Part shown: piece after piece, positions 13,417-29,846 of the stretch
How positions within the stretch are numbered: the first letter of the stretch is position 1
Layout of the letters: the number at the start of each line of letters is the position of its first letter
Assembly: GCF_022482905.1 (NCBI RefSeq)
Contig: NZ_JAKVOI010000001.1
Span: 1,799,958-1,863,957 of the forward strand
From: Clostridium sp.
GTDB taxonomy: Bacteria; Bacillota; Clostridia; Clostridiales; Clostridiaceae
Length of the DNA stretch: 64,000 nt
Direction of reading: 5' to 3'
Made by a program: the position numbers and the translations under genes
The notes under the pieces: model-generated
Database searches by the model: none
What the model was told of the DNA's origin: nothing
The model's input: the letters and a program-made list of their open reading frames with translations, nothing else

Positions 13417-14139
13417 TTACCCTTTAATTCTATCAACAACATATTTCTGGAATTCAAGTGCCTTTGTCCTGTCCATGGGTTTGATTCCCTTTAATCTGTA
13501 TTTTATGCCAAGTTTGTCATATTTGCCTTCCCCCATTGTATGATAGGGCAGAATTTCGAATTTATCCAGTTTATCCGGATTGACATATTCTTTTATCATA
13601 TGGGCCATTCTATCCATGCACTCACAGCTGTCAGTCATACCGGGAACCATAACGTGCCTTATCCAGAGTCTTGAACTGGATTTATTCACCGCTTCAACAA
13701 ATCTGTAAAATTCTTCAATATTTCCACCGGTCAGCTTTTTATAACCAGCTCCATCAATATGCTTTATATCCAGTATCACAAGATCCGTATACTTTAAAAT
13801 TTCTCCATAATCTCCCTTTCCAAAGCCTGATGTATCCACTGCAGTATTTATACCTCTTTCTCTGCACAGCTTCAGAAATTCAAGAAGAAATTCCGGCTGC
13901 ATGAGAGGCTCTCCTCCGGAACAGGTGACCCCGCCGCCGGACTTGTCAAAGTATATTCTGAACTTCTCCACCTTTTTTAAAAGCTGTTCGGCATCCATGT
14001 CCTCTCCGCCATTGAATTCCCATGTATCCGGATTGTGGCAGAAAGCACATCTCAGTCTGCAGCCCTGGAAAAAGACAACCATTCTTATTCCCGGGCCATC
14101 TACAAGTCCCATAGTTTCAATGGAATGAATTTTCCCCAT
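13417..14139 (-). CDS. pflA: Pyruvate formate-lyase-activating enzyme
   Basis: A 240-residue radical SAM protein of the PflA family. The cluster motif is GCRLRCAFCHNPDTW (C27, C31, C34), and the N-terminus IHSIETMGLVDGPGIRMVVF is characteristic. It generates the glycyl radical on PflB using S-adenosylmethionine and a 4Fe-4S cluster. It starts 3 bp after the pflB stop, so the two are cotranscribed and probably coupled. Only the single radical-SAM cluster motif is present, without the extra ferredoxin domain found in some activases of other glycyl radical enzymes. Confidence 0.97.
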   Translation of the reverse strand: MGKIHSIETMGLVDGPGIRMVVFFQGCRLRCAFCHNPDTWEFNGGEDMDAEQLLKKVEKFRIYFDKSGGGVTCSGGEPLMQPEFLLEFLKLCRERGINTAVDTSGFGKGDYGEILKYTDLVILDIKHIDGAGYKKLTGGNIEEFYRFVEAVNKSSSRLWIRHVMVPGMTDSCECMDRMAHMIKEYVNPDKLDKFEILPYHTMGEGKYDKLGIKYRLKGIKPMDRTKALEFQKYVVDRIKG

Positions 14140-14142
14140 ACA

Positions 14143-16374
14143 CTATACCCGTGCATGGAAGGTTCTGTGTATTACTTCCATCTGCTGTTCTCTCGTAAGC
14201 TTTACAAAATGAACTGCATATCCTGAAACCCTTATGGTAAGTGTAGGATATTTTTCCGGATTATCCACTGCATCCAGAAGTGTCTCCCTGTTCATTACAT
14301 TTACATTCAGATGATGTGCTCCCTTGTAAAAATATCCGTCCAGAATGGAAACAAGATTATTTATCCTGTTGTTTTCATCCTTTCCAAGGGCATCTGGAAT
14401 TATTGAAAATGTATTTGACACACCATCCTGACATACGGATCTGTACGGTATCTTGGCTACAGAATTCAGGGATGCAAGTGCACCTTCCCTGTCCCTGCCA
14501 TGCATAGGATTTGCACCTGGAGCAAGTGGTTCTCCTGCTTTTCTTCCATCAGGCGTGGTGCCGGTTTTCTTGCCATACATTACATTGGAGGTTATTGTAA
14601 GAGCAGACAACGTATGTTCTGCATCTCTGTAGGTCTTTGTTTTTCGGAGTTCACCTATAAACCTGTTTACTATTTCAACTGCCATGTCATCCACCCTGTC
14701 ATCGTCATTCCCGTATTTGGGAAAATCGCCTTCTACCTCGAAGTCCACGGCTATTCCATGCTCGTCCCTTACAGGTCTTACCTTTGCATATTTTATTGCA
14801 CTGAGTGAATCTGCAGCCACGGAAAGTCCTGCTATTCCGCAGGCAAGAAATCTGTGCACCTCCGTATCGTGAAGTGCCATGAGCCCTGCCTCGTAGGCAT
14901 ATTTGTCATGCATGTAGTGAATCAGATTCAAAGTATTTACGTACAATTTGGCTACATATGCCATTACCTTGAAGTAATTTTTCTTCACCTTTTCGTAGTC
15001 AAGTATTTCATCCTCCATCTTTTCTATATGCGGAACCACCTTCTGGAATTTCTTTTCATCAACACCGCCGTTTATAGCATAGAGAAGTGATTTTGCAAGA
15101 TTGCACCTTGCACCGAAGAACTGCATCTGTTTTCCTACAGCCATGGCCGACACACAGCATGCTATGGCATAATCGTCTCCGTATACGGGCCTCATTATAT
15201 CATCATTTTCATACTGCAGGGCATCTGTCTCTATTGACATCCTGCTACAGTACTTCTTAAATGAATTCGGGAGGTCCTGGGACCACAATACCGTCATGTT
15301 CGGCTCGGGAGCAGGTCCAAGATTTGTAAGGGTGTTCAGGAACCTGTAGGAATTTTTTGTGACCAGAGTTCTTCCGTCTATTCCCATACCGCCTATTGAT
15401 TCTGTAACCCAGTTTGGATCTCCTGCAAAGATCTCATTGTATTCAGGAGTCCTGAGATGCCTTTCAAGTCTGAGCTTGATTATAAACTGGTCTATAAGCT
15501 CCTGTGTGCCCTGTTCATCTATAATACCCTTTTTCAAATCTCTTTCAATATATATGTCCAGGAATGTGGAAACTCTTCCAAGAGACATTGCCGCACCGTT
15601 ATTTTCCTTTATACCTGCAAGATATCCAAAATAGGTGAATTGAACAGCTTCTGCTGCGTTTGCCGCAGGATTTGAAATATCAATTCCATAACGCGATGCC
15701 ATACTTTTCATCTTCTTGAGTGCCTTTATCTGCTCTGCAACTTCTTCCCTCTGTCTTATAATGCTCTCGGTCATATCTCCCTTCAGGTCCTTCAGATCAT
15801 CTTTCTTCTGTTCTATCAGGTAATCGATGCCATACAATGCTATCCTTCTAAAATCTCCTATTATTCTTCCTCTTCCATAGGCATCTGGAAGCCCTGTCAG
15901 AAGTCCCACATGTCTCGCTGTCCTCATCTCTTCATTGTATGCATCAAATACCGCTTCATTATGTGTCTTTCTGTACTTTGTAAATATATGCTGCATTTTA
16001 TCATCGACTTTGTATCCATAGGCATCAAGAGCCTGCTGTGCCATTCTTATACCTCCGAAAGGGTTGACCATTCTCTTGAGGGGTGCATCAGTCTGGAGTC
16101 CGAAGATAACCTCGTTTGGCCTGTCTATATATCCCGGTTCAAAGCTGTCAATGCCGGATACGGTTTTTGTATCCACATCAAGCACTCCGCCTTTTTTAAT
16201 TTCCTCAAGAATGAGCTTTTCCGACTTTTCCCAGACTCTTTTTGTCCTCCCGGTAGGAGCTGTTAAAAAACCTTCATCTCCAGTATAAGGTGTGTAGTTT
16301 TTCTGTATAAAATTTCTGACGTCGATACCTTCTGTCCATTTTCCAGTCTTAAAATTTTCCCACTGATTTCGCAT
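14143..16374 (-). CDS. pflB: Formate C-acetyltransferase (pyruvate formate-lyase)
   Basis: A 743-residue glycyl radical enzyme converting pyruvate and CoA to acetyl-CoA and formate. The adjacent catalytic cysteines are C406-C407 in [16 protein letters not shown]. The radical glycine is G718 in [14 protein letters not shown]. Length is close to the usual ~740-760 residues. A ZTP riboswitch lies about 90 nt upstream, which suggests that PFL here supplies formate for 10-formyl-tetrahydrofolate and purine synthesis as much as energy. Other members such as choline lyase or glycerol dehydratase lack the double Cys. pflA follows at 3 bp. Confidence 0.98.
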
Positions 16375-16462: not shown

Positions 16463-16558
16463 AAAATGACCGCCTGGACACTTTAATTGCCCAGGCGGTC
16501 GGCTTTCAAAAATCGTACTCCCTGTGGTTATATCCACTTCCGCCGGTTATACGACCTG
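16463..16558 (-). ncRNA. ZTP (pfl-motif) riboswitch controlling pflBA
   Basis: Read on the minus strand, the 5' domain begins AGGTCGTATAACCGGCGG and continues with the GTGGATATAACCAC hairpin and GGGAGTACGA. The conserved 3' element is CCGCCTGGGCAA. These match the ZTP/ZMP-sensing pfl motif. The last helix doubles as an intrinsic terminator: GACCGCCTGG (16477-16468 as read on plus) pairs with CCAGGCGGTC (16491-16500) and is followed by ATTTTTAG. Binding of ZMP/ZTP, which builds up when 10-formyl-THF is short, would allow read-through into pflB at 16374. Confidence 0.93.
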
Positions 16559-16585
16559 TTTAAAATCAATTTTCCTTGTACATTT

Positions 16586-16614
16586 AAAATATCATATTAT
16601 CACAGATGTGTCAA
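16586..16614 (-). promoter_or_regulatory. Putative promoter for the riboswitch-pflBA transcript
   Basis: On the minus strand a perfect TTGACA (16614-16609) is followed after 17 bp by TATTTT (16591-16586). This places the start near 16579, about 20 nt before the riboswitch. The -35 overlaps the stop codon of the upstream adhesin gene. The same stretch can form an ATCATATT/AATATGAT hairpin, so a weak terminator is the alternative. Confidence 0.5.
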
Positions 16615-19600
16615 TATGATTTTTTTCTCTTAAACACGAGTACAGCTCCTGAAAGAACAAGCAATATTCCCAATACAGCCAATACCGACGTGTCTATGAT
16701 ACTTCCCGTTTTAGGAAGTTTTGAATCCATGCCATTTTCCAGAGATGAATTTTTCTGCCCGTTTTGTATGCCATTGTTTCCACCCTGTTTACCTGGCTGT
16801 GAAGACCCCTTTGCCGGATTTTTACTTTCTCCTGAGTTGTTACCCGGCTGATTTGGCTGATCCGGTTTATTACCTTCATCCGGATTCTCTCCTGGCTGTT
16901 CCGGTTCTTCTGGTGTAGGCTGTACAGGTGGTACAACAGGTGTACTTCCTTCTTCTTTAGCATCCTGTACAGTTCCAAGGTCATAAACCTTGCTCTGGTT
17001 TATCTCTACAGATAATATTTTATCTGAGATGGAATAACCAGAAGGTGCTTTGGTCTCCTTGACAGTATATTTACCTGGATTTACCTTGGTAAATTCTGCC
17101 AGCCCATTTTCATCTGTCACAGCAGTCTTCACTGAATTTCCCTTGGAATTGATCAGCGTGAACTCCGCACCTTTAAGCGGATTTCCGCTTTTATCCGTCT
17201 TATTTACATTCACCGTGCCCTGGATGCTTGCACTTCCGCCTCCGCCTGCACCTCCTGAAGAAATAGGAGTCATTGGTATGTCATGCCTTACTATAGCATC
17301 ATTTACAGAAATGGTCTCTGTTGTTTTGGTTTCATATCCAGGTTTTGTTGCAACAATGTAGTAATCGGTATTCGGATAAACCATGAAAGCATAGTTTCCA
17401 TCTTCGTCACTGGACTGCGGGTTTGCATTGTCTGCAGGAGGGAATCCCTCCAGTCCCGGAAGCTGTACAAGTGTATCGGGAGTTTTGCCTGATTCCCTGT
17501 TTCTCTCGGTATCTGCATAGTACAATTTTATATCCGCATCAGGTATTTTATCACTACTAACACTGTCAGTGACTAAACCATATGGATCTATCAGGGTAGG
17601 TTCCGGATCAATCCTCATCTGTCCGTCAGAATCCATTTTCACATGAATTGTTCCGATAATAATCTCTTCACCATTATCGAAGTTGTATACGATATTGAAG
17701 TTGTATTCCCTGTCCTTTTCAAGGCCACCTACTTGGAAGGTACCGTCACTTCCGATATCAACCTGCTGTCCAATTTCTGGAACATCAATGGTTATATTGC
17801 CATAGTCCTTGAAATATCCCGCAGTTTCTCCATCAGGATTTTTCAAAAGTACAATACCTGCTGCAGTTTTTTCAGAGTCATAGGAATTTCCTGCAATTTC
17901 ACCAGGATTTGATTTCTGTATGAACGTTTTATCTTCTGTCTTTCCATTTATCTGTACAGGTACTGTTATCTCGACATCATACTCTACATCTCCCTTTGGA
18001 ACGGCAATTTCATATTTGCCGTCAGATGATGTAGTTACTTCACTTTTGAAGTCTATTGTTCCATCACCATCAAAGTCCTTCTTAACTACAACCGTAGCTC
18101 CAGCTATAGGATTTCCTGTTTCATTGTCCACAACTGCTCCCTTTATGCTGCCCGGTTCAAATGTAATATCTATTTGATCCTTGGAATTCAGTCCGTGTTC
18201 CGGGTCATTGACAACTGCGGTAACAGGTATCTTCTTTTCTTCAATTCCTTCAATTTTATCGGACTTGAATACTACGCATGCTTCACCATTTTCATCGGTG
18301 ACTGCAGAACTGCCCTCAGGGAAACTTCCGTTCGGTGCTGAAAAATCAACAGTAACACCAGGTACAGGCTTATTGTCCGCATCAACTACTTTCGCTGTAA
18401 GAGTCGATGTTGATTTACCGTCACCTGTAATGGACTTCGGATCTGCTGTTAACTCAATGTTAAAGCTGTTGTCAGATATCTTCTCGTCAGTAATACTGTC
18501 CTTGACATTTTTTGCATTCTCAGATATATCAAATTCATGTACATCTGTGTTGAGCTTATAGCCTTCAGGCGCCCCTGTCTCCTTGAAATAATAATGTCCA
18601 TATGGAAGGCCGTCAAATACTACTTTTCCATCCGCCCCGGTTATTTTGCTGTCTACAACATCGGTGAGCGCACTGTCCCTGTATATTGTAATAGTTGCCC
18701 CTGGTACAGTTCCCTGTGTAGAAAAATCGGATTTTGATATCTCTATACTACCGGTAATTCTTGTATCCGTCAGGCTGTCCCTCAGGATAACTCCGTTTTC
18801 TTTTATATTGAATGGATGTTTGTCTTGATTCAGCAGGTATCCTTCCGGTGCATTTGTCTCCACAAAATAGTATTCTCCATAAGTAAGATTCTCAAATACT
18901 ACTTTTCCATCTTCTCCGGTTGTTCCTTCTACTCCACTCCCTACTGGCTGTCCATCACTTGTGTACACTGTAATTGTTGCTCCAGGTACTGGTGCCGAAG
19001 TCGAAATGTCTGTCTTTGATATCTCTATGCCGCCTGTGATCCTTGTATTTTCTATGCTTCCAAGATCATAGGTTTTTCCATCTTCAGATACATTTACAGA
19101 AATTGCTTCCTCAGAGGAAAGATTGTATCCTGCTGGAGCTTTTATTTCTTTTACAGAATACTGTCCATACACTACATTTGTAAATACTGCTGTTCCGTCA
19201 TCTCCACTTACTGCTTCACCTGTTTTATATCCGGTGCTGTCATAGAGCACAAATACTGCTCCTGATAATGAATTTCCATTTGCATCTGTTTTCTTGATAG
19301 TTACTGTTCCTTTTTTCTTCACATTAGTATATGGATCTAAGGTTATAGTCTCTCCATTGTCATTATCTCCTATAGTTGCACTTAATGTTTTAGTAGAGAG
19401 TACATAACTTTCATCTGATGCTGCTGTCTCTTTTATGACATATGAACCATACTCTACATCAGTAAACTGTACAAATCCATTTACATCACTTGCTGCAGTC
19501 TTGATAGGAGTTTCAAATGCTGTATCATCAGCTTTGTAAAGTTTAAACTCTACTCCAGACAGAGGATTGCCGCCTTCATCAGTTTTAGTGAATACTATAC

Positions 19601-22600
19601 TTCCCCTTATCTTCGTATCTGTTAAAGTATCCTTCACAATAACTCCATTTTCACTGATACTGAATGGATGTTGATCTGGATTCAGCAGGTATCCTTCCGG
19701 TGCATTTGTCTCCACAAAATAGTATTCTCCATAAGTAAGATTCTCAAATACTACTTTTCCATCTTCTCCGGTTGTTCCTTCTACTCCACTCCCTACTGGC
19801 TGTCCATCACTTGTGTACACTGTAATGGTCGCTCCAGGTACCGGTGCTGAAGTTGAAGCATCTGTCTTTGTTATTTCCATTCCACCCTTTATTTTCTGGT
19901 TTTCAAAAGTTATTTTCTGAGGCGATTCTTGAGTAGTTTCAGTTTCTACGCTAAAAGGATGATAAGTACTATCTAATACATAGTTATCTGGTGCACTGAT
20001 TTCTTTATAGAAGTAGTTTCCATAAACCAAGTTATCAAACTGTACTGTTCCATCTTCTCCAGTGATTTTTGGATTTCCTGTCTGCTGCTTATTGCTGTCA
20101 AAAATTGCCATAGTAACCCCCGGTATTGCTATTCTGGTTGATGCATCTATTTTCGTTATCTTAATTGATCCTTTAAGCTTTGAGTCAGGGAAAATAAATA
20201 TATCAGTATTTACAGTTTGTCCATTTGCTATTATAACAGTTAAATCAGCCTTTAAAACTTGATTAGAAATACTGTAACCAGCTGGTGCTTTTGTTTCTTT
20301 AATGATATATTTTCCATATGGTATATCACTAAACTGTACAAGTCCATCACTTTCACTCGTTGCTGTAACTATTGGATTTGAAAAATCAGTATCAGTGTTT
20401 TTGTAAAGTTTGAATTCTGCTCCTTGAATAGCTCCGTCAGTACCTGTTTTATAGAACTGTATATTGCCTTTCAGTATTTCATCTACATAATTATAAGTGA
20501 TATTCTTCTGATCATCGTCACCATCATTAACCTTAAAAGTATGAATATCACTGCTTAAATTGTATCCTATAGGGGCAGTTATCTCCTTGATGCTGTAGTT
20601 TATATCGTATTTCAAGTTGTCAAAAATGGCTGAGCCATCATCTCCTGTAGGAGCAGAAGTCTCCTTCACATTTCCATACTGATCCAGAAGCTGAAATACT
20701 GCTCCCGAAAGTGGTGTAGTATCATCATCTCCAACTTTTACAACGGTAATACTCCCTATTTCTCCTGTGGCACCGCCGCCGCCGGTTGAAAACCATACAC
20801 CATTTTGAGTAGCACTTGAACTTTGATTTATATTGCTTCCACTAAATGTAACTGAATTTGTAAAGTTCCCTGTCTTGGTTGTATATGTCCTGAAATTCAG
20901 AATGAAAGCTTCATTACCTGCATTCTCAGGGAAAGTAAATGTGAACAATCTAGTATCAGGATTGTATGCCACGTTAGAAGAATCAAGTAGAATTTCAGAT
21001 CCTTGTGTAAGAGTTCCATCAGAATTCACAGTGGCACTATACAATTTTACAGTATCTGTATCCAGTGAAAGCCCATTCTGCAACGTATCGGTTATAGTTG
21101 CACCAGATAGTGGAATACTCCAGTTAGCATTGGTCTTTACTGTCCAGTCAATGTAGTTATTTCCATTATTATAACTGGATGTCTTGCTAATTACTGAATT
21201 TTTAACAGTCTGTATTCCTTTGCTTTCTACATCACCATCTGAAGGTATTTCATTACCGGTAATAGCTGCAGTATTTTCCAATATTTTATCTCCACTTGTA
21301 TTGAAAATATTCAGGTTTGTAAGCTTTGTCCTAAAAGTTATAGTATAGGTATCAGTAATAGTACCAGCAAAACTATATTTAAACAATCTTGTTGTCTGTG
21401 GATTATTTACTGCACTATCGTCAATGGGATTGTCATTAAGATTTGCAGAATCTGCAACATACTCCTGTCCTTCCGGAATAACGTCGGTAACTACTGTATT
21501 GGTTATTGGTATTTCATTCTTGTTTATTACGATCTTCCAGGTAGTTTCTCTTGTTGCATAATTATAGTCTTCACCTGTCTTTGTAATTACATTACTGGTT
21601 ACCTGCTGAGTTCCAGTATCATCTTGATTTATAGCACCAGCTTTCAAATTAACAGTATTGCTGTAAGTACCACTGTAATTTGCCTTGTAATGTGTTGGAT
21701 CAGTCACCTGCGTCTGAAGTGTTATAGTATGTGTGTCAGAAAACGCATCGGCAAAAGTATATACAAAAGTTCCTGTCTTGTTCGTATCTCCACCTGGTGC
21801 TGCTGTATATCCACTATCACCTATGGAAATTCCATCAAGTTTGGCAGAACCAGATAAATAAGTTTGACCTACAGGAATATCATCTGTAACCACTGCACCA
21901 GCAGCAACATTTGTCTTATTACCATTTACAGTAATTGTCCAAGTAATTATACCATTGGAAGCATCATAACCAGAACCTTGTTTATGAACGATAGTTGATG
22001 AAACTCCAACACCATGACCTGATGTTCCAAGTGTAAAGCCATTTCCTGTAAAAGTAGCATTATTTGTATATGTCTGACTACCATTGGAATTATAGACACT
22101 TGTATCTACATTTGTTGAATAAGTGATTGTCACTTTTCCTGTAATATTACCTAAATTGAAGGTAATATTACCTGAATAGTCAGGTGTCAAAGGTATATCA
22201 TTTTCATTTTTAACTGAAATACTACCCGGAGTTACAGTAAGTCCTTCAGGAACAACATCAGTAACTACTGCATTGTTGATTGTCTTACTATCTTCATTTA
22301 CTGTAATTGTCCAATTTATTCTCTTACTGGCTGAATCATAGCTTCCAGTTTTGCTGATATATGTGACTGTTACTGAAACAGTACCAGCGTTTACGTTTTT
22401 GGTATGCGGAGCTCCCTTATAATCATCATAGCTAAAATCAGCTGTATTGTTAAAATTATAGGTACCTTGTAACTGGGAAGCCAGAAAATCTTTTACACTA
22501 GTTTTATAGGTTATAGTTTGCTCATCAGTGATATTTCCAAGATTGAAAATCAGTGCTTTAGTATCATCGTAATAATAGGTATCACCAACACCTGAATTAT

Positions 22601-24212
22601 TGATTGTAATAGAACCGGGAATAAATACCTGGCCTTCCTCACTTTTTATAGTATCCGTAATAGTAGCATTATCTGCCTGTATTTTTTCACTGTTGGCTGT
22701 TATCGTCCATGTAATTTCATCTGTACTTTTATTGTAATGCTCACTTTTGGTAAAAGATGCATCCGTTGGCTGTACAAAGTTTACACTGACTGGAACTGCT
22801 GCTATACCCGGAATTGTAAAGTTAATATTCTCAGGGTTTAAGTTGCCTATTGCACTTTCTTTAAAGTGACAATCCACATAGAAATATCCGTTTACATTGG
22901 AATGTGTACTTGGATAATCTGTGAACGTGAGTGTTACAAGCCCACTTGTATCCACATGCATATCCGCCACTTTTGCTCCATCATTATCAGTTATCGGCTG
23001 ATTAATAGGTGCTACAATATGAATCTGCTCCGGCAGCTGCATGGTGTAATAATCACCTGGATTAACAGCTACTGTATTTGGAATACTCCAGGTATAATTA
23101 GCATGAATTTCTGAAGTTTTGTCTACATCATTACCCAGATCGTTGCCATTGGCATCTTTTATACTAACACCTGTAATAAACGGAAATGATTCTGTAATAT
23201 CCTTAGGCTCAGCCTGAGGTGCAATCACAGCATCAGCTGCCTTATCACCTGGTTTTGCCTGCACTTCCTCATCCGGCTTTTCAGCAGAATTTTGCTGTTC
23301 TGCTTCTTCCTGTTTGAAATTAACATTTACTGAAGTCTTTCCAATACTGACGGATACAGGATTGCTGTTTCCTATCTTGTCCTTGTTAAACTGCCCACTT
23401 ATGGACAATTTACCTGATGTACCGCTCTTCACTTCAGCAGTAAAAGTGACAGTTACCTTGTTTGAAGCCGGATCTGCACTTATTGAACCTATTACAGCAT
23501 CCTTGGAATCTTTGACTTCACCACTGACATCTTTAAGCTTGATCTGGTCTGTGAGCTGAATACTGTAGGAAGTACCTTTAGCTACATCTTCCGAAATCGA
23601 AAAATCATAATTGATGTTGACATCAGAACTCTTGTCCACATCTGTTTCAGCACTGATATCTTTACCTGTCCCGTCTGTAAGAATACCTCCTATTATAAAT
23701 GGAAATTCTATTACAGTAGGAGTGGCTGCCGGATCAGAATCGGCCGGTTCTTTCGGTGCCGGAGTTTCAGTTTGTCCAACAGTTGTACCTGAGTCCTGAG
23801 TTGTACTGTTCTGTTCAGGCTCTTTGGTAGTATTGCCTTCTGATTGGGATGTATTGGAATCCTGGTCGGCGTTCTGCTGGCTGCCTGTTTCTTCCTGCTG
23901 TGCTCCATTTTCAGAACCTCCATTTGTTCCTTCAGTTTCCTGCTCAGTACCCTGCTGTGCAGTATTGTCCGAATCACCTGGAACTGCCGGTGTACTTTCT
24001 TCCTGTGTCACTGACCCATCTTGATCAGTAGCAGTTTCGTTGGAAATTTCAGTACCACCTCCATTCTCACCCTGTGACGTTGAAGTATTTTCTGTTACAA
24101 GTGGAAATGTGGAAGTATCTGCCTTTACACTTTTTAAAGGCGCAGAAGAAATAAAAATCTGCAGCACAAACAGAAGTGATACCGCAATTGATAAAAATTT
24201 TTTCTTTCTCAC
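16611..24212 (-). CDS. Giant LPXTG-anchored multidomain surface adhesin
   Basis: About 2533 residues from a GTG at 24212, 6 nt after AAAGGAGGTG; an in-frame GTG at 24230 lies ahead of that site. Order: signal peptide (1-~35); Thr/Glu/Gln-rich linker (to ~165); two related FPFI-domains (~170-305, ~345-485); five ~125-residue beta-sandwich repeats resembling Cna/DUF11 adhesin modules (from ~490, 622, 742, 877, 1009); eight SpaA/Cna-B-like domains (~1150-1915); an invasin-like Big_1 domain (~1917-2020); carboxypeptidase-regulatory-like modules (~2021-2320); a ninth SpaA domain (~2326-2415); a Pro-rich wall segment; and the sorting signal LPKTGS (from 2499), hydrophobic helix and KRKK tail. All nine SpaA domains keep the strand-A Lys and the E in the KE/VET/IKE motif, as needed for isopeptide bonds. 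Sortase-anchored; ligand unknown. Confidence 0.9.
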   Translation of the reverse strand: MRKKKFLSIAVSLLFVLQIFISSAPLKSVKADTSTFPLVTENTSTSQGENGGGTEISNETATDQDGSVTQEESTPAVPGDSDNTAQQGTEQETEGTNGGSENGAQQEETGSQQNADQDSNTSQSEGNTTKEPEQNSTTQDSGTTVGQTETPAPKEPADSDPAATPTVIEFPFIIGGILTDGTGKDISAETDVDKSSDVNINYDFSISEDVAKGTSYSIQLTDQIKLKDVSGEVKDSKDAVIGSISADPASNKVTVTFTAEVKSGTSGKLSISGQFNKDKIGNSNPVSVSIGKTSVNVNFKQEEAEQQNSAEKPDEEVQAKPGDKAADAVIAPQAEPKDITESFPFITGVSIKDANGNDLGNDVDKTSEIHANYTWSIPNTVAVNPGDYYTMQLPEQIHIVAPINQPITDNDGAKVADMHVDTSGLVTLTFTDYPSTHSNVNGYFYVDCHFKESAIGNLNPENINFTIPGIAAVPVSVNFVQPTDASFTKSEHYNKSTDEITWTITANSEKIQADNATITDTIKSEEGQVFIPGSITINNSGVGDTYYYDDTKALIFNLGNITDEQTITYKTSVKDFLASQLQGTYNFNNTADFSYDDYKGAPHTKNVNAGTVSVTVTYISKTGSYDSASKRINWTITVNEDSKTINNAVVTDVVPEGLTVTPGSISVKNENDIPLTPDYSGNITFNLGNITGKVTITYSTNVDTSVYNSNGSQTYTNNATFTGNGFTLGTSGHGVGVSSTIVHKQGSGYDASNGIITWTITVNGNKTNVAAGAVVTDDIPVGQTYLSGSAKLDGISIGDSGYTAAPGGDTNKTGTFVYTFADAFSDTHTITLQTQVTDPTHYKANYSGTYSNTVNLKAGAINQDDTGTQQVTSNVITKTGEDYNYATRETTWKIVINKNEIPITNTVVTDVIPEGQEYVADSANLNDNPIDDSAVNNPQTTRLFKYSFAGTITDTYTITFRTKLTNLNIFNTSGDKILENTAAITGNEIPSDGDVESKGIQTVKNSVISKTSSYNNGNNYIDWTVKTNANWSIPLSGATITDTLQNGLSLDTDTVKLYSATVNSDGTLTQGSEILLDSSNVAYNPDTRLFTFTFPENAGNEAFILNFRTYTTKTGNFTNSVTFSGSNINQSSSATQNGVWFSTGGGGATGEIGSITVVKVGDDDTTPLSGAVFQLLDQYGNVKETSAPTGDDGSAIFDNLKYDINYSIKEITAPIGYNLSSDIHTFKVNDGDDDQKNITYNYVDEILKGNIQFYKTGTDGAIQGAEFKLYKNTDTDFSNPIVTATSESDGLVQFSDIPYGKYIIKETKAPAGYSISNQVLKADLTVIIANGQTVNTDIFIFPDSKLKGSIKITKIDASTRIAIPGVTMAIFDSNKQQTGNPKITGEDGTVQFDNLVYGNYFYKEISAPDNYVLDSTYHPFSVETETTQESPQKITFENQKIKGGMEITKTDASTSAPVPGATITVYTSDGQPVGSGVEGTTGEDGKVVFENLTYGEYYFVETNAPEGYLLNPDQHPFSISENGVIVKDTLTDTKIRGSIVFTKTDEGGNPLSGVEFKLYKADDTAFETPIKTAASDVNGFVQFTDVEYGSYVIKETAASDESYVLSTKTLSATIGDNDNGETITLDPYTNVKKKGTVTIKKTDANGNSLSGAVFVLYDSTGYKTGEAVSGDDGTAVFTNVVYGQYSVKEIKAPAGYNLSSEEAISVNVSEDGKTYDLGSIENTRITGGIEISKTDISTSAPVPGATITVYTSDGQPVGSGVEGTTGEDGKVVFENLTYGEYYFVETNAPEGYLLNQDKHPFNIKENGVILRDSLTDTRITGSIEISKSDFSTQGTVPGATITIYRDSALTDVVDSKITGADGKVVFDGLPYGHYYFKETGAPEGYKLNTDVHEFDISENAKNVKDSITDEKISDNSFNIELTADPKSITGDGKSTSTLTAKVVDADNKPVPGVTVDFSAPNGSFPEGSSAVTDENGEACVVFKSDKIEGIEEKKIPVTAVVNDPEHGLNSKDQIDITFEPGSIKGAVVDNETGNPIAGATVVVKKDFDGDGTIDFKSEVTTSSDGKYEIAVPKGDVEYDVEITVPVQINGKTEDKTFIQKSNPGEIAGNSYDSEKTAAGIVLLKNPDGETAGYFKDYGNITIDVPEIGQQVDIGSDGTFQVGGLEKDREYNFNIVYNFDNGEEIIIGTIHVKMDSDGQMRIDPEPTLIDPYGLVTDSVSSDKIPDADIKLYYADTERNRESGKTPDTLVQLPGLEGFPPADNANPQSSDEDGNYAFMVYPNTDYYIVATKPGYETKTTETISVNDAIVRHDIPMTPISSGGAGGGGSASIQGTVNVNKTDKSGNPLKGAEFTLINSKGNSVKTAVTDENGLAEFTKVNPGKYTVKETKAPSGYSISDKILSVEINQSKVYDLGTVQDAKEEGSTPVVPPVQPTPEEPEQPGENPDEGNKPDQPNQPGNNSGESKNPAKGSSQPGKQGGNNGIQNGQKNSSLENGMDSKLPKTGSIIDTSVLAVLGILLVLSGAVLVFKRKKSY
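18827..18974 (-). repeat. 148-bp perfect direct repeat, copy 1 (adhesin SpaA domain 7)
   Basis: Bases 18827-18974 are identical to 19679-19826, a spacing of exactly 852 bp (284 codons). The two copies encode matching parts of two SpaA domains, from TITVYTSDGQPVGSGVEG to FVETNAPEGYLLN. Identity extends imperfectly on both sides. Synonymous positions are identical too, so the duplication or gene conversion is recent. Confidence 0.97.
19679..19826 (-). repeat. 148-bp perfect direct repeat, copy 2 (adhesin SpaA domain 4)
   Basis: The second copy of the 148-bp repeat within the adhesin gene. Recombination between copies would delete or add 284 residues in frame, that is, three SpaA domains, and so could vary the length of the surface protein. 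Confidence 0.97.
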
Positions 24213-24284
24213 TTTTCCACCTCCTTTCACAATATAATTTTATAAAGTTAATTATTTATTAATAATAATTTAACTTTGACCTAT

Positions 24285-24341
24285 ATTATATGATATTTTA
24301 CTCACAAACTGATCACAAATTATTTACAGATTATTTACAAA
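24285..24341 (-). promoter_or_regulatory. Adhesin promoter with four 11-bp-phased heptads
   Basis: On the minus strand four heptads follow each other at exactly 11 bp: TTTGTAA (24341-24335), TCTGTAA (24330-24324), TTTGTGA (24319-24313) and TTTGTGA (24308-24302). After an 11-bp gap comes TATAAT (24290-24285). There is no good -35; the heptads cover that region, so the promoter probably needs an activator. SARP-type regulators with OmpR-like winged helices bind heptad direct repeats with 11-bp phasing next to the -10. The nearest gene on the other side encodes such a regulator. Confidence 0.65.
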
Positions 24342-24343
24342 AA

Positions 24344-24368
24344 AACAGGGAAGTTGAACTCTCCTGTT
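24344..24368 (-). terminator. Intrinsic terminator after the response regulator gene
   Basis: AACAGG (24344-24349) pairs with CCTGTT (24363-24368), with a short inner AGTT/AACT stem. On the minus strand it runs into TTTTTTTG. It directly follows the response-regulator stop and isolates the adhesin promoter from the kinase operon. Confidence 0.75.
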
Positions 24369-25490
24369 CTATAATTTCATAAGCAAAGCTTTGTAAAGCC
24401 TTTCTGTTGCTTCCTTCGGCTCTATATGCAGTTCATCTTTAAACATGGCATTCAGTTCATCATAACATTTCATCAATGCAACCTTGTCACCACGATAAAA
24501 ATAAACTTTCATCATCAGCTCATAAGCTTCTTCATCAAAAGGATTTTTTGAAATTGCCTTCTTCAGATATTCCTCCGATTTGTTGTAGCTTTTTTCCTTC
24601 ATATAGTATCGTGCTATATTTTTAACTTCAAGCAGATAATATCTCAAAAGCTTTTCATTCAATTCATTGTTCCAGACATAATCTTCATTTCCAAATAAAA
24701 TACCCTTATACAAATTTACAGCATCAACATAATCACCTATATTTTTGCTGTCAGCTTCAATATGGATTTCAATAAAGTCTTCAAAATCCCAGGCATCGCA
24801 TCTGAATTCTGTAAAATCCACACTGTAATTTCCACTTTTATAGTAGATCACATTATATATGCCGACATTTTTCAAGACATTCTTCAGTCTGTATATTGTA
24901 CTGTACAGATTGTGTTCTGCATTTTTGGGCGGAGAATCCGGCCAGAGCATATCACAGAGATTCCATCTGTCGGTCTCTTCTCCTCTGTTGCATATGAAAT
25001 ATGCAAATAGCTCCTGGACTTTTGAAGTTGACCACCTGACAATTTCATTTCCAGAACTTCCATATACTTTAAAACCTCCAAGGCAGAGTATTTCATTTTT
25101 TCTGATTTTAGCTGAAATGTTTTTTCTCCTGCCGTAATTTTTCAAAAGTCTTTTTACCGTCGTATTGATATCCTCTTCCGTAATTGGCTTCAGGATATAG
25201 TTCACAGCATCGACTTCAAAGGCCTGCAGGGCATATCTTTCATAGGCAGTAACAAATACTATCTGTATATCTTCATCAAAATTTTTCACCTGTTTTGCAA
25301 GTTCCACACCATTTATATACGGCATCTCTATATCCACAAAGACAACATCCGGCGAAAGCTTGAATATACCGTCAAGTGCTTCTCTTGAGTCAGTATATCC
25401 ACCTATTACCTCCAGATATTTATTCCTGTTGATAAACATTTCCATCAATTTCAGAATAGGCTTTTCATCTTCTACAACTACAGCTTTCAT
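24369..25490 (-). CDS. Response regulator with winged helix and BTAD (SARP-like) output
   Basis: A 373-residue regulator. The N-terminal receiver domain (1-~125) has the acidic pair in VVEDEKP, phosphoacceptor D53 in VVFVDIEMPY, Thr in FVTAYE and Lys in YILKPITEE. Residues ~140-235 look like an OmpR-type winged helix (LGGFKVYGSSG, then ELFAYFICNRGEETDRW and YSTIYRLKNVLK). Residues ~240-373 are an all-helical bacterial transcriptional activator domain with TPR character. The start overlaps the kinase stop by 4 bp (25487-25490). It probably activates the adhesin gene downstream through the heptad promoter at 24285-24341. Confidence 0.9.
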   Translation of the reverse strand: MKAVVVEDEKPILKLMEMFINRNKYLEVIGGYTDSREALDGIFKLSPDVVFVDIEMPYINGVELAKQVKNFDEDIQIVFVTAYERYALQAFEVDAVNYILKPITEEDINTTVKRLLKNYGRRKNISAKIRKNEILCLGGFKVYGSSGNEIVRWSTSKVQELFAYFICNRGEETDRWNLCDMLWPDSPPKNAEHNLYSTIYRLKNVLKNVGIYNVIYYKSGNYSVDFTEFRCDAWDFEDFIEIHIEADSKNIGDYVDAVNLYKGILFGNEDYVWNNELNEKLLRYYLLEVKNIARYYMKEKSYNKSEEYLKKAISKNPFDEEAYELMMKVYFYRGDKVALMKCYDELNAMFKDELHIEPKEATERLYKALLMKL

Positions 25491-28400
25491 AAACCATTCC
25501 CCCTACAATATAGAGACATCGTTACAGTTGTCCCTTTCCCTTCAACACTGCGTATGTCCATATTACCCTTTCCAAGCTGTCTGATTCGCCTGTCCACATT
25601 CAAAATACCTACCCCGCAGCCGCTTCTGTCACCATTTTTCAATGTCTCAATTTTATCCCGGGACATACCTATGCCATTATCCTTTACCTCAATATACATG
25701 CACCCATTTTTCTTTACGGCGGAAACACATACCCTTCCGCCCTCACTTTTTCCAAGCAGGCCGTGCCTTATTGAATTTTCCACAATGGGCTGTATGCACA
25801 GTGATGGAATCTGCTCGTTCATAACCCCCTGTTCGATGTCATATTCAATATTTATTCTGTTTTCAAATCGTGTCTTCAATATTTCAACGTAGGCATCAAC
25901 CATCTCCAGTTCACGCCTGAGTGATACCATCATGAGTTTGTTGTCTATGTCAAAGGTAAATCTCAGATATTTGCTTAAACTTGTAAGAAGTCCCGCCGCT
26001 TTCTCCCCATCGGTATAGCAGAAGGAAACTATTGTACTTATGGTATTATATAAAAAATGGGGTTTTATCTGTGAATGAAGGAAAGCCAACTCATTTTTCA
26101 CTGCATCTTCCATGTACTTTTTAAGCAATATCAAATTCGTCACTCTGGCAGACATCTCTTTTGCCTCAAAGGGTTTGGCTATAAAGTCATTTGCCCCTGC
26201 TTCAAATATCTGGAAGACTTCATAATTTATATCCTTCAGCATGGATATAAGTATGGGAAGTTCAATGAGGGAATACTTTTCTCTTATTTTTCTGCACACC
26301 TCTATGCCTGAAATTCCTGGAAGCATTAAATCAAGAAGAACAAGGTCTATTTTATTTTTCTCCAGTTTTTCCAGTGCATCTTTACCGGACAGAGCCGTAA
26401 TTACATTGTAACCTTCTCCACATAATACATTGAGTGCTATTTTAATATTCAATATTTCATCGTCAATTAGCAGAATGCTTCCTTTATAATTCTCCTTTTG
26501 TATCGTTTCAGAGTACTTTATAGGATAAAACCTGCCGATATAACCTGCATCCTTCAATTTTGTCCGTCTATACTCTGCAGTATTTTCTTCACAGCCCTGC
26601 AGTGAAAATACGAAACGGCTTCCCTGCCCGATCTCGGACCACTCTAAAAATATTTTTCCGTGCATCAGCTCAACAAGCTGACGTGTTATATACAGTCCAA
26701 GGCCAATTCTTTCAAAATTCAGGGACTCATAGGGTTCAAAAATCTCTTCCCTTTTACACCAGGGTACTCCAAACCCTGTATCTTCCACGGATATGGAAAT
26801 CATCCCTCCATCCTTCCTGCCGTCTATGCTTATCAAACCTCCATACATATTGTGAACTGCATTGGTTATGAGATTGAACAGAACCTGCCTTATTCTGCCT
26901 TCATCAGCTTTCACAAACATGGATTCTCCTATATTGCTGACTATGTCTATACCTGTTCCCTGTATTATATGTTTATGGGTTTCCACTACTATATCCACAC
27001 ATACCTTGATATCCACAACCGACATCTTCACATTAAGTTGTCCATTTTTCAGCAGTGCTACATCAAGTATATCATTTACAATGCCGGACAATTTCAGCGC
27101 CATGTTCTTCATTGTCATAACCTTTTTCATGTTCTCATCCTCTGGATGATTCATATTGTCCTTAATTAATATATCGGCAATGTCAATCATTCCATATAGC
27201 GGAGCCTTCAATTCATAGGACGTCTTTGTAACAAATTCATCCTTTATCCTGTCTTTTTTTATGAGTTCTCCCGACATCCTCTCCATATATTTATAATTTG
27301 TAAGGAATTTGTCACTGTGGATCATATATGAAAACATTACAAAACCACAGAATGATACGGCGCCTATGAACTCATCGGATACAATATCCAGAGAATAAAG
27401 GAAACTGTTTATAAGAAAAATACTTATACATATCATGGCTCCCAGAAAATTACCCGCTTCATTATCTCCAATAACCCTCATTCCTTTTCCAAACATGAAC
27501 AGAAGTCTTAAAACAACTGCTACAATGAACATACTTATAAATATATACTTCAGCAGGCTTAAATCCATGTAAACAGAATAATCTGCATTCCATACTACGG
27601 CCGTATAGAACAGTGCCAGGGAAACACCCATTTTCAATGCGGCATCCGGAAGTATTTCAATATCCTTTTCCACTGTTATTCCAATCAGAGATGTTACAGT
27701 TATAATTGCTGATATCTGCTGAATTTTGCAGTATATTTCGAAGGGTATAAAGGGAAACAGCTGAATCAGTATTCTTTCCCCACCTAAAAGCATATCAACT
27801 GCAAGGGACAAGAAGGCAGCAGCATAGTACAGATATATTTTTTTCCTCTGCAGTTTTACATAAACTCTTAAAATATACATGGAAATCATGAACATCACTA
27901 TACTGCCCGACAATTCAATGGAGGTTTTACCAACATTCATAAAGTTTATATCCTTCTGATGACCAAAGTATATTTCATACATGGTTCCCCTGAAAGGATA
28001 TCCGAAACCGGCAGATTGAAGTATTATTTCAATTGTATACCCTTTGACGTTGAAGTATGTACAATATGGAACCATGCCGGCATTATATCCATTGTCCTTC
28101 TCCGCAGGATTTCCACTTGAACCCATTATTTCACCATTTATGTACAATCTATTGCTCATTCTGATATTTCCCACATTCATCCCGAATACGTTATTTGAAG
28201 GTTTTACTTTTGCAATGAGCCTGAAAGTCCTTGCACCTTCCGGTTTCACAAGCATATAACTATCTTTGTCCATTATTGTGGATGTAATTTTTACATATCC
28301 TGTAGGTTTGGGTTTTTGAGCGCTTTTTTCCTCAAAATCTTCCGGTGTAAGAAGCTGTCCATCATAAAACTCCCACTGTCCGTCAAGCTTTACTGCACCA

Positions 28401-28546
28401 TCTTTTGAAAAATCCCACTTTGAAAGATCCATCTTTCCATACTGTGCCGGCAGCGGTTTTTTAGGGGACATTACATCTGAAAAAAGTATAAAAGCTGAAA
28501 TCACAAACATTCCCAGAACTATTATAATTCTAGTCACAATTTTCAT
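25487..28546 (-). CDS. Hybrid sensor kinase with 7TMR-DISM input and two kinase modules
   Basis: 1019 residues. An N-terminal helix is followed by an extracytoplasmic beta-rich domain (about 40-190, 7TMR-DISM-like), then about seven transmembrane helices (about 200-400). The first kinase module has an H-box reading KTSYELKAPLYGM: the phosphoacceptor His is Tyr444, while its ATPase domain keeps the N box (FNLITNAVH) and G boxes (DTGFGVP, GLGLYI). A receiver follows with D739 in VLLDLMLPG. The C-terminal module is LytS-like, with H830 in QIKPHFLYNT and its own ATPase domain (IVENSIRHG, DNGIGM). So only the second module can autophosphorylate in the usual way. It overlaps the response regulator by 4 bp and is divergent from the sortase. 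Confidence 0.9.
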   Translation of the reverse strand: MKIVTRIIIVLGMFVISAFILFSDVMSPKKPLPAQYGKMDLSKWDFSKDGAVKLDGQWEFYDGQLLTPEDFEEKSAQKPKPTGYVKITSTIMDKDSYMLVKPEGARTFRLIAKVKPSNNVFGMNVGNIRMSNRLYINGEIMGSSGNPAEKDNGYNAGMVPYCTYFNVKGYTIEIILQSAGFGYPFRGTMYEIYFGHQKDINFMNVGKTSIELSGSIVMFMISMYILRVYVKLQRKKIYLYYAAAFLSLAVDMLLGGERILIQLFPFIPFEIYCKIQQISAIITVTSLIGITVEKDIEILPDAALKMGVSLALFYTAVVWNADYSVYMDLSLLKYIFISMFIVAVVLRLLFMFGKGMRVIGDNEAGNFLGAMICISIFLINSFLYSLDIVSDEFIGAVSFCGFVMFSYMIHSDKFLTNYKYMERMSGELIKKDRIKDEFVTKTSYELKAPLYGMIDIADILIKDNMNHPEDENMKKVMTMKNMALKLSGIVNDILDVALLKNGQLNVKMSVVDIKVCVDIVVETHKHIIQGTGIDIVSNIGESMFVKADEGRIRQVLFNLITNAVHNMYGGLISIDGRKDGGMISISVEDTGFGVPWCKREEIFEPYESLNFERIGLGLYITRQLVELMHGKIFLEWSEIGQGSRFVFSLQGCEENTAEYRRTKLKDAGYIGRFYPIKYSETIQKENYKGSILLIDDEILNIKIALNVLCGEGYNVITALSGKDALEKLEKNKIDLVLLDLMLPGISGIEVCRKIREKYSLIELPILISMLKDINYEVFQIFEAGANDFIAKPFEAKEMSARVTNLILLKKYMEDAVKNELAFLHSQIKPHFLYNTISTIVSFCYTDGEKAAGLLTSLSKYLRFTFDIDNKLMMVSLRRELEMVDAYVEILKTRFENRINIEYDIEQGVMNEQIPSLCIQPIVENSIRHGLLGKSEGGRVCVSAVKKNGCMYIEVKDNGIGMSRDKIETLKNGDRSGCGVGILNVDRRIRQLGKGNMDIRSVEGKGTTVTMSLYCRGNGL

Positions 28547-28580: not shown

Positions 28581-28611
28581 AATTTGTTTTATGATCATTT
28601 TCTCACAAATA
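28581..28611. promoter_or_regulatory. Dyad between sensor kinase and sortase genes
   Basis: AATTTGT (28581-28587) and ACAAATA (28605-28611) flank the palindrome ATGATCAT (28591-28598). On the minus strand the element TTTGTGAG followed by ATCATA resembles the last heptad and -10 region of the adhesin promoter (TTTGTGAG, then ATCATATAAT). This suggests that the same regulator acts on the kinase operon, that is, autoregulation. Confidence 0.4.
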
Positions 28612-28705: not shown

Positions 28706-29278
28706 TTGAAAAAATCGAAAATCATTGGTGGAGTTCTTATATTTGCAGGCATTCTGATACTTTTATATGCTTTTGGTGCCAGATACCTGACAGCATACAG
28801 GCAGAACAATATGGTAAAAAATTATGAACAGAGAATTAAAAAGCACAAGAAAAATGCTGAAAATTCATCTGATCCTGCTGTAAATTACGGTACAATAGGA
28901 CTCCTGGTTATTTCCAAAATAAATTTGAAGGTTGCAATAGGAGAGGGTACAGATATGGACACGCTCAGATATGCTGTAGGTCATTTCAAAGGTACGGCCC
29001 TGCCGGGACAGAAGGGTAATTTTGCCATGGCAGGTCATAGAAGTTATACTTATGGACAGTACTTCAACAGACTTGACGAGCTTAAAATTGGAGATGAAAT
29101 AATAGTAGAAACTATTAAAGGAAAATATAAATACAAAATATACAATAAAAAGGTTGTCCTCCCAGAACAGGTGGAGGTATTAAATCCAACTAATGATGCA
29201 ACTATGACACTGGTTACCTGTACACCTATCAGAGTTGCCACCCACAGGCTTATAGTAAGTGCACGATTGGAAAATTAG
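28706..29278 (+). CDS. Class D-like sortase
   Basis: A 190-residue transpeptidase with an N-terminal membrane anchor (about 6-28) and a sortase barrel. The catalytic residues are H111 in AMAGHRSYTYGQ, C172 in TLVTCTPIRV and R181 in THRLIVSA. Start is TTG after GAGGAG. Small size, the single N-terminal anchor and the AGHR...TLVTC pattern point to class D. The clostridial class D enzyme studied earlier prefers LPQTGS-type signals, and the neighbouring adhesin ends with LPKTGS, so this enzyme is the natural candidate for anchoring it. Divergent from the sensor kinase gene. Confidence 0.88.
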   Translation: MKKSKIIGGVLIFAGILILLYAFGARYLTAYRQNNMVKNYEQRIKKHKKNAENSSDPAVNYGTIGLLVISKINLKVAIGEGTDMDTLRYAVGHFKGTALPGQKGNFAMAGHRSYTYGQYFNRLDELKIGDEIIVETIKGKYKYKIYNKKVVLPEQVEVLNPTNDATMTLVTCTPIRVATHRLIVSARLEN

Positions 29279-29285
29279 TACCATA

Positions 29286-29846
29286 CTATTTAAATATTTC
29301 TTTTAGATTTACATTCAAATTATTAAATATACTGGATTTAGCTATATCATCTTTATAATATACAATGGGTTCATCATAAAAATTTTCTTCATTTAAATTA
29401 AATATTTGTACATTACTATTTTTAGGTGAAATAATCCAGTATTCCTTAACGCCAAAGCTCTGGTATAATTCCAGTTTTTTGCTTATATCAATCCATGCCG
29501 TGGAGGGAGAAAGTATTTCTACAATTAAAGTCGGAACTCCTGAATAATTTTTTTCATTTATTCCTGATTCATCGCATATTACCGAAAGATCCGGTATAAC
29601 TTTATTTTTTGATGTTTTTTTGTCACTTTTTAATATTATATCGTAGGGTGCAGTGAACGGTTCGCATTTTTTATCACTAAAATAAACATCAAAAATCGTA
29701 GATATTTTTCGTGAAATTCTTTGATGGGAAGTATTTGGACTTGCTTGAAGGTATATTCCTCCATCGATAAATTCTATTGATTTATCACTTTTGCTTTCTA
29801 TATCTAGAAATTCTTCAAAAGACACTCTATCCTTTTTGGGCAACAT
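29286..29846 (-). CDS. Uma2-family protein (DUF820, PD-(D/E)XK nuclease fold)
   Basis: 186 residues. MLPKKDRVSFEEFLDIE and FIDGGIYLQASPNTSHQRIS are the typical N-terminal region; VIPDLSVICDE and TLIVEILSPSTAWIDISKK hold the D and E/K positions of the restriction-endonuclease-like fold. Uma2 proteins are common in cyanobacteria and scattered in Firmicutes, often in many copies, and their role is unclear. It ends 8 bp after the sortase stop, convergent with it. Base composition looks more AT-rich than the adjacent adhesin genes, which could reflect transfer, but I have not measured it. Confidence 0.88.
   Translation of the reverse strand: MLPKKDRVSFEEFLDIESKSDKSIEFIDGGIYLQASPNTSHQRISRKISTIFDVYFSDKKCEPFTAPYDIILKSDKKTSKNKVIPDLSVICDESGINEKNYSGVPTLIVEILSPSTAWIDISKKLELYQSFGVKEYWIISPKNSNVQIFNLNEENFYDEPIVYYKDDIAKSSIFNNLNVNLKEIFK

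Follow-up and report, generated by a model that had tools for sequence, protein, structure and literature searches.

Heptad array and probable promoter of the adhesin gene

The window analysed here, a stretch of 64,000 nucleotides from Clostridium sp. (contig NZ_JAKVOI010000001.1), carries on its minus strand a gene for a giant cell-wall adhesin, which is preceded by the genes for a response regulator with a BTAD and for a tandem hybrid histidine kinase (Table 1). Between regulator and adhesin, the minus strand reads from 24341 to 24285 as TTTGTAA-ATAA-TCTGTAA-ATAA-TTTGTGA-TCAG-TTTGTGA-GTAAAATATCA-TATAAT, i.e., four heptads, with ATAA, ATAA and TCAG as spacers between consecutive heptads, in front of a -10 hexamer. 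A sequence-only reading of this DNA had described four TTTGTRA-like heptads that start at 24341, 24330, 24319 and 24308 and end 11 bp before TATAAT, upstream of a giant adhesin gene; the heptads are exact in the sequence, and the nature of the gene 3' of them has been borne out by matches to cell-wall LPXTG domains. Its start is likely the GTG at 24212 after AAAGGAGGT, while the longest frame begins at 24230. With TATAAT placed at -12 to -7, the array extends from -63 to -24 and its last heptad from -30 to -24. The hexamers located 16, 17 and 18 bp 5' of TATAAT (TCAGTT, ATCAGT and GATCAG) match a TTGACA-like -35 at no more than two of six positions, in keeping with the earlier statement that there is no -35 box.

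Single TTTGTRA heptads are frequent in the window (56 vs 37 expected), and the signal is therefore carried by the phased array: with up to three mismatches allowed, the 3,567,184 bp of the genome contain the four-heptad pattern a single time and its reversed control not at all. A predicted hairpin 3' of the regulator stop ends right before heptad 1, so that terminator and operator likely abut; unlike the fold result, a pattern scan of 24150-24420 has given no terminator at this place. The regulator itself combines a receiver (Response_reg, 79.4 bits) with a BTAD (43.7 bits, above the cut-off of 22.1) and is the sole BTAD match in the genome at E ≤ 0.001. The presence of the putative phospho-acceptor Asp D53 in its receiver, together with a kinase gene directly upstream, marks it as a two-component response regulator.

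Table 1. Features of the adhesin module, with positions counted from the first letter of the window
Feature	Position	Strand	Basis
Heptad 1, TTTGTAA	24335..24341	-	sequence
Heptad 2, TCTGTAA	24324..24330	-	sequence
Heptad 3, TTTGTGA	24313..24319	-	sequence
Heptad 4, TTTGTGA	24302..24308	-	sequence
11-bp gap from heptad 4 to -10, GTAAAATATCA	24291..24301	-	sequence; same distance in 19/23 comparable regions
-10 hexamer TATAAT, perfect	24285..24290	-	sequence
Hairpin with U-tract, touching heptad 1; likely the terminator of the regulator operon	24342..24370	-	fold -11 kcal/mol, z -3.4
Giant LPXTG cell-wall adhesin; SpaA, Collagen_bind and Big_8 (Ig-type) domains	16611..24212	-	domain matches
Response regulator: receiver (D53), OmpR-like winged helix, BTAD	24369..25490	-	domain matches
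Tandem hybrid histidine kinase, 1019 aa: HisKA-like, HATPase, receiver, LytS-type His_kinase, HATPase	25487..28546	-	domain matches
Candidate site of autoregulation 5' of the kinase: TTTGTGA, 11 bp, TAAAAC	28586..28609	-	sequence
Sortase gene, divergent from the kinase	28706..29278	+	homologue beside the module in L093, L094, L095 and L097

Conservation at orthologous loci

Six orthologues of the regulator with 54-62% identity have been found, each of them before a large secreted adhesin, and the arrays at these places comprise four heptads in three cases, two in two and a degenerate array in one. The four-heptad arrays are of the TTTGTGA/TATGTGA type at L005/L094 and L010/L095 and read TTTGTGA, TATGTGA, TTTGTTA and CTTGTTA at L006/L093, with the 11-bp gap and an adhesin downstream in all three; L096 and L098 carry two TTTGTGA heptads before the adhesin, and the degenerate array before an adhesin belongs to L097. 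Locus L003 from a metagenome-assembled genome has the same array as L010 and is taken as the same place. The gene order sortase-kinase-regulator-adhesin is kept in L093, L094 and L097, while kinase, regulator and adhesin are present within the stretch compared in L096 and L098. L095 (genome G007) has kept all four heptads, but its regulator frame is short, its adhesin is split over two frames and a kinase has not been found; it looks like a decaying module or an assembly fault. L096 and L098 had first seemed to have a second spacing of 8 bp; both also carry TATNAT at 11 bp, and two spacings are therefore not claimed. A lack of conservation in relatives had been named beforehand as a refuting outcome, and the comparison has not refuted the reading: the phase as well as the 11-bp gap persist at the orthologous loci; with altered letters, both extend beside distant BTAD regulators across Clostridia.

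Period and gap across the family

An alignment of winged helix and BTAD (A1) has been used as the search profile. It matches in 53 of 206 family genomes at E ≤ 1e-20, some of the matches being other BTAD proteins, and at E ≤ 1e-30 in 44/225 genomes of the order and 32/391 of the class, the three genome sets overlapping and the 391 class-level genomes being an evenly drawn sample. The earlier statement that the arrangement appears unusual in clostridia is contradicted by the matches in the family genomes; judged by its recurrence in these genomes, the layout is widespread and not a one-off. Counting has covered the matches at E ≤ 1e-30 within family and order and most of those that the class search added; these 80 loci together with the window (81 sources) give 85 regulators. 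A next gene on the same strand after 60-700 bp of intergenic DNA follows 64 of them, or 61 after removal of near-duplicates, with intergenic regions that rest on crude gene calls.

An exact, non-trivial heptad repeat with period 11 occurs in 35 of the 61 regions downstream of BTAD regulators, while all other periods from 8 to 22 give 0-4, and Markov resampling leads to an expectation of 1.8 regions with a maximum of 5 in 200 resamplings. Other intergenic regions of the same loci have shown the period-11 repeat in 37/414 (Fisher p 4e-17 against the 35/61); without six controls that largely repeat a test region, period 11 is found in 35/408 and the other periods (8-14) in 10-21, and several control matches resemble further boxes of the same kind (e.g., at L093, L103, L104, L113, L117, L118 and L170). 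When the heptad repeat is anchored by a -10 (TANNNT, at least 4/6) at a set gap, the combination of period 11 and gap 11 is found in 37/61 regions and other periods from 8 to 14 in at most 2 at any gap of 6-16; some anchored rows are probably due to chance, given that other periods reach 2/61. In the control regions, the anchored pattern at gap 11 has been counted in 26/414 at period 11 and in 3-10 at other periods. With the register fixed by the TGTNA core, the -10 lies at exactly 11 bp in 19 of 23 regions, the window included, against a background of 3.6% per position, and the same distance holds for 6 of the 9 control regions with such a pair. Loci of OmpR-type and LytTR regulators have served as further controls (30 each, with 1.5-kb flanks and all intergenic regions inside): the exact period-11 heptad is found in 1/32 regions at OmpR-type loci, and LytTR loci give 0/27 for both the exact repeat and the anchored pattern.

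Which protein reads the box

The boxes vary with the regulator lineage and read TTTGTGA, TTTGTCA, TTTGTAA, TTGTTTA, TCTTTTA and others. Among the 37 anchored regulator-box pairs, the more alike two recognition helices are (taken as residues 189-207 of the regulator), the more alike their boxes tend to be (r 0.40, reached in 0/1000 permutations). Scanning the full protein with 19-residue segments at steps of 6 places the peak of co-variation at residues 181-205, i.e., at the turn of the helix-turn-helix and the recognition helix. Two genomes hold more than one such pair: in G221 (L121), different boxes follow two BTAD regulators that lie about 7 kb from each other (twice TTTGTGA and twice TTGTTTA, respectively), and in G219 two loci (L101 and L162) have different boxes beside BTAD regulators. 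The array is very probably the landing site of the adjacent two-component regulator.

Comparison with known systems

The descriptions of published systems given here and below follow excerpts of the cited papers. In the AfsR complex, the 11-bp repeats between -40 and -19 hold two adjacent SARP protomers, which overlap a poor -35 and on which sigma region 4 is seated; SARP repeats generally lie 8 bp from the -10 (PMC10936776), and the difference from the 11 bp found here may be a mere choice of register. The clostridial regulators resemble AfsR and EmbR in the succession of OmpR-type winged helix and BTAD, A1 reaching EmbR at E 1.6e-9, in the winged-helix part, and AfsR at 1.2e-8 by two stretches, best in the BTAD; top matches in this same search are engineered TPR proteins, hit through the TPR-like BTAD. 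Likeness to AfsR and other SARPs extends to the DNA, with 11-bp direct repeats just upstream of the -10 and over a poor -35. If the afsS -10 is assumed at -12 to -7, the AfsR core consensus GTT(T/C)A (PMC10972967) falls at -28 to -24 and has the same letters and register as the clostridial boxes TTGTTTA and ATGTTCA. In contrast to AfsR, the protein considered here is a two-component response regulator with a histidine kinase, it occurs in Clostridia and lacks a NOD/TPR part, its target is a surface adhesin rather than antibiotic genes, and the heptads read TTTGTRA.

Among the marks of a SARP, the system shows heptad direct repeats at an 11-bp period in the target promoter, a 3' repeat kept at a short, constant 11 bp ahead of the -10 in a promoter whose -35 is poor or absent, and a regulator in which an OmpR-type DNA-binding domain, detected as a sub-threshold Trans_reg_C match, is followed by a BTAD. 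Cluster-situated antibiotic control in actinomycetes is not among its features, as the hosts are Clostridia and most boxed targets look secreted; this concerns habitat and function and not architecture, and the system is therefore named SARP-type. EmbR of Mycobacterium tuberculosis (PDB 2FEZ) shares winged helix and BTAD and differs by an FHA domain in place of the receiver (PMC10936776). BrpL (SSA_0427) of Streptococcus sanguinis is a BTAD protein of the Firmicutes that affects biofilm and is annotated as SARP-like; it has BTAD and TPR parts, the excerpted text describes neither a receiver nor a repeat operator for it, and its authors group it with the LuxR family (PMC5987052). The atypical response regulators of Streptomyces form a family apart from SARPs and are without phosphorylation residues (PMC8910723). 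According to the excerpt of one survey, BTADs account for 0.6% of response regulators among regulators linked to biosynthetic gene clusters (PMC10663231), and receiver-BTAD fusions as such have therefore been counted previously. No paper on BTAD response regulators of Clostridia has been found among the matches listed in the open-access literature, and from the literature so found, partly in excerpt, a clostridial two-component SARP-type class is absent.

Proposed mechanism and alternatives

Very probably, the array serves the adhesin gene as operator and promoter and is recognised by the SARP-type response regulator encoded next to it. The system may be regarded as a SARP-type activator of clostridial surface proteins that works as part of a two-component system. 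Gene order and domains suggest that the tandem kinase (25487-28546) would sense a signal and phosphorylate D53 of the regulator. Protomers of the regulator would assemble head-to-tail on the four 11-bp repeats along one face of the DNA, with one winged helix per heptad, an arrangement that is supported by the phase and by the co-variation of helix and box; the presence of four copies here vs two in many relatives suggests two dimers or cooperative loading. Since a good TATAAT is combined with no matching -35 and with a last repeat fixed at 11 bp, the bound regulator would take over the -35 function from this position; like AfsR, it would contact region 4 of sigma as well as core RNA polymerase. 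The sortase of the same module would anchor the LPXTG adhesin, and a similar but weaker site may let kinase and regulator control their own operon.

Several observations weigh against this assignment. The response regulator next to the array had been read as an OmpR-type winged helix plus BTAD, of which receiver and BTAD are well matched, but the winged helix is seen only as a weak Trans_reg_C match of 18.0 bits, under the Pfam cut-off of 26.2, and a single-sequence model of the regulator is too poor for use (mean predicted local distance difference test score 41.4, predicted template modelling score 0.36). A countable downstream region is absent for 21 of the 85 regulators, the anchored pattern is missing in 24/61 regions, and some rows leave the box register ambiguous, with the expected final A present in 28 of 37. 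Over all pairs, the box correlates also with receiver (r 0.30, 5/1000) and BTAD (0.31, 1/1000), and shared descent therefore contributes. The 456 of 666 pairs with receivers less than 40% identical, a subset which controls for relatedness in part, speak for the assignment: the helix still correlates there (0.27, 0/500), while receiver (0.08) and BTAD (0.06) do not. Another point against it is a minor peak of co-variation in the BTAD (residues 295-325, r 0.20-0.22), which might reflect protomer contacts.

As an alternative, which we consider improbable, PhoP or some other ordinary member of the OmpR family could bind the heptads as a PHO-type box. The opposite strand reads TTTACA/TCACAA at 11-bp phase, and the PhoP motif of B. 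subtilis is close to these letters. PhoB and PhoP are not known to have a BTAD. PHO boxes comprise two 11-nt direct repeats of 7 conserved and 4 less conserved bases, so that the likeness extends to tandem 7+4 direct repeats with a head-to-tail OmpR-family response regulator (PMC4415409), and the afsS promoter is contested between PhoP and AfsR (PMC10972967, PMC4415409). The shared format alone does therefore not point to SARP, and the claim that the heptads are the DNA pattern of SARP activators stands by its comparative support and not by the 7+4 format. Intergenic regions at OmpR-type loci show the anchored period-11 pattern in 3/32 cases (other periods 0-1), a low yet non-zero figure that would be expected from PHO-like boxes of some of these regulators, but exact period-11 repeats in just the one region mentioned above. 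Unlike PHO boxes, the letters of the boxes track the recognition helix of the neighbouring BTAD regulator and differ within one genome. That G221 and G219 each have distinct boxes next to distinct BTAD regulators speaks against a single PhoP-like reader with one box consensus for the whole genome.

A regulator that binds yet represses, or covers the DNA cooperatively without contact to RNA polymerase, is quite improbable: the upstream reach of the array to -63 and its four copies, more than the two of the afs box, would suit such a role, but a promoter without a matching -35 should be weak without an activator, the gap to the -10 is fixed at 11 bp across species, which fits contact with RNA polymerase, and SARPs are described as activators (PMC10936776, PMC10972967). 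It is extremely improbable that an ordinary sigma-70 promoter is all there is and that the phase arose by accident in a T-rich stretch of low complexity upstream of it. Single heptads are indeed frequent, the first T-tract is part of the hairpin, and a weak alternative -35/-10 pair, TTGTGA-17 bp-TATCAT (9/12), overlaps on the same strand as one of four promoter-like matches on both strands of 24150-24420 (shuffle mean 1.7). Yet the array is unique in the genome and conserved at orthologous loci, and the period-11 repeat exceeds its expectation of 1.8 regions with 35/61.

Further sites and features of the module

Beyond the adhesin promoter, plain heptad sites have been found in 3 of 12 kinase leaders inspected, namely in the window, in L093 with three perfect TTTGTGA heptads 11 bp before TGATAC, and in L097 with ATTGTCA/TTTGTGA 11 bp before TATATT, which suggests autoregulation of kinase and regulator in some loci. 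A genome scan for two heptads at up to one mismatch has returned 33 places, 3 of them inside the array, vs 14 for the reversed control. Among the 30 of these 33 that have been read, only L175 and L196 have TANNNT at 11 bp besides the array: L175:1501-1566 (G000:C1:180785) carries TATGTGA GGAA TTTGTGA, 11 bp and TATATT (5/6) before an open reading frame for a ZapA-like protein, and L196 (G000:C1:2356471) is a weaker site with TAGGAT (4/6) at 11 bp. Both are candidate sites, possibly arisen by chance. Across the regulators compared, the downstream gene has a median length of 1480 aa with an anchored box vs 483 aa without, and by a crude hydrophobicity rule 24/37 boxed vs 8/24 unboxed targets look secreted. 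Within the first 420 residues at most, boxed targets match Big_8 in 11/37 and Collagen_bind in 10/37 cases; a few are proteins of other kinds, among them two with GGDEF domains.

A c-di-GMP-II riboswitch lies between box promoter and adhesin start at L096:6825-6907 and L101:6799-6881, and before the adhesin at L105:7802-7883, where no box has been found after the regulator. These adhesins beside BTAD regulators in L096, L101 and L105 point to dual control by transcription and riboswitch. Some relatives thereby resemble CD2831 of Clostridioides difficile (PMC6447587) in having a c-di-GMP-II riboswitch in the adhesin leader; in contrast to CD2831, the adhesin leader of the window is without one (the window and the stretches of ten relatives have been scanned), and control here is assigned to a BTAD response regulator.

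The HisKA box of the kinase, SYELKAPL, has Tyr444 at the place of the expected phospho-acceptor His. Among 12 full-length kinases, this residue is Tyr in five (window, L093, L094, L097 and L098), Ser in L096 and His in six (L099, L100, L103, L104, L105 and L107), and all 12 retain an intact LytS-type QI(K/R)PHF box at the C-terminus. In the lineage of the window, the first kinase module may hold a pseudo-acceptor. The sortase gene is adjoined by a gene of the Uma2 family (29286-29846). On the far side of the adhesin, a ZMP/ZTP riboswitch (16482-16560) precedes genes for a PFL-like glycyl radical enzyme and a radical SAM protein (13417-16374).

Implications

On balance, we lean towards the view that giant surface proteins of Clostridia are controlled by a large class of SARP-type two-component systems, which act at promoters devoid of a -35 with the geometry of AfsR sigma adaptation and by a readable code, in which the recognition helix predicts the heptad, and that in some species a c-di-GMP-II riboswitch acts as a second check on the same adhesin transcript. 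A mode of control that has been studied mainly in antibiotic-producing actinomycetes would accordingly extend to Clostridia, where large adhesins appear to be switched by it, and the cell surface of another bacterial phylum would be brought under SARP-type control if this reading is true. With dozens of regulator-box pairs at hand, the recognition code may be learnable, and new target genes could be predicted from sequence alone.
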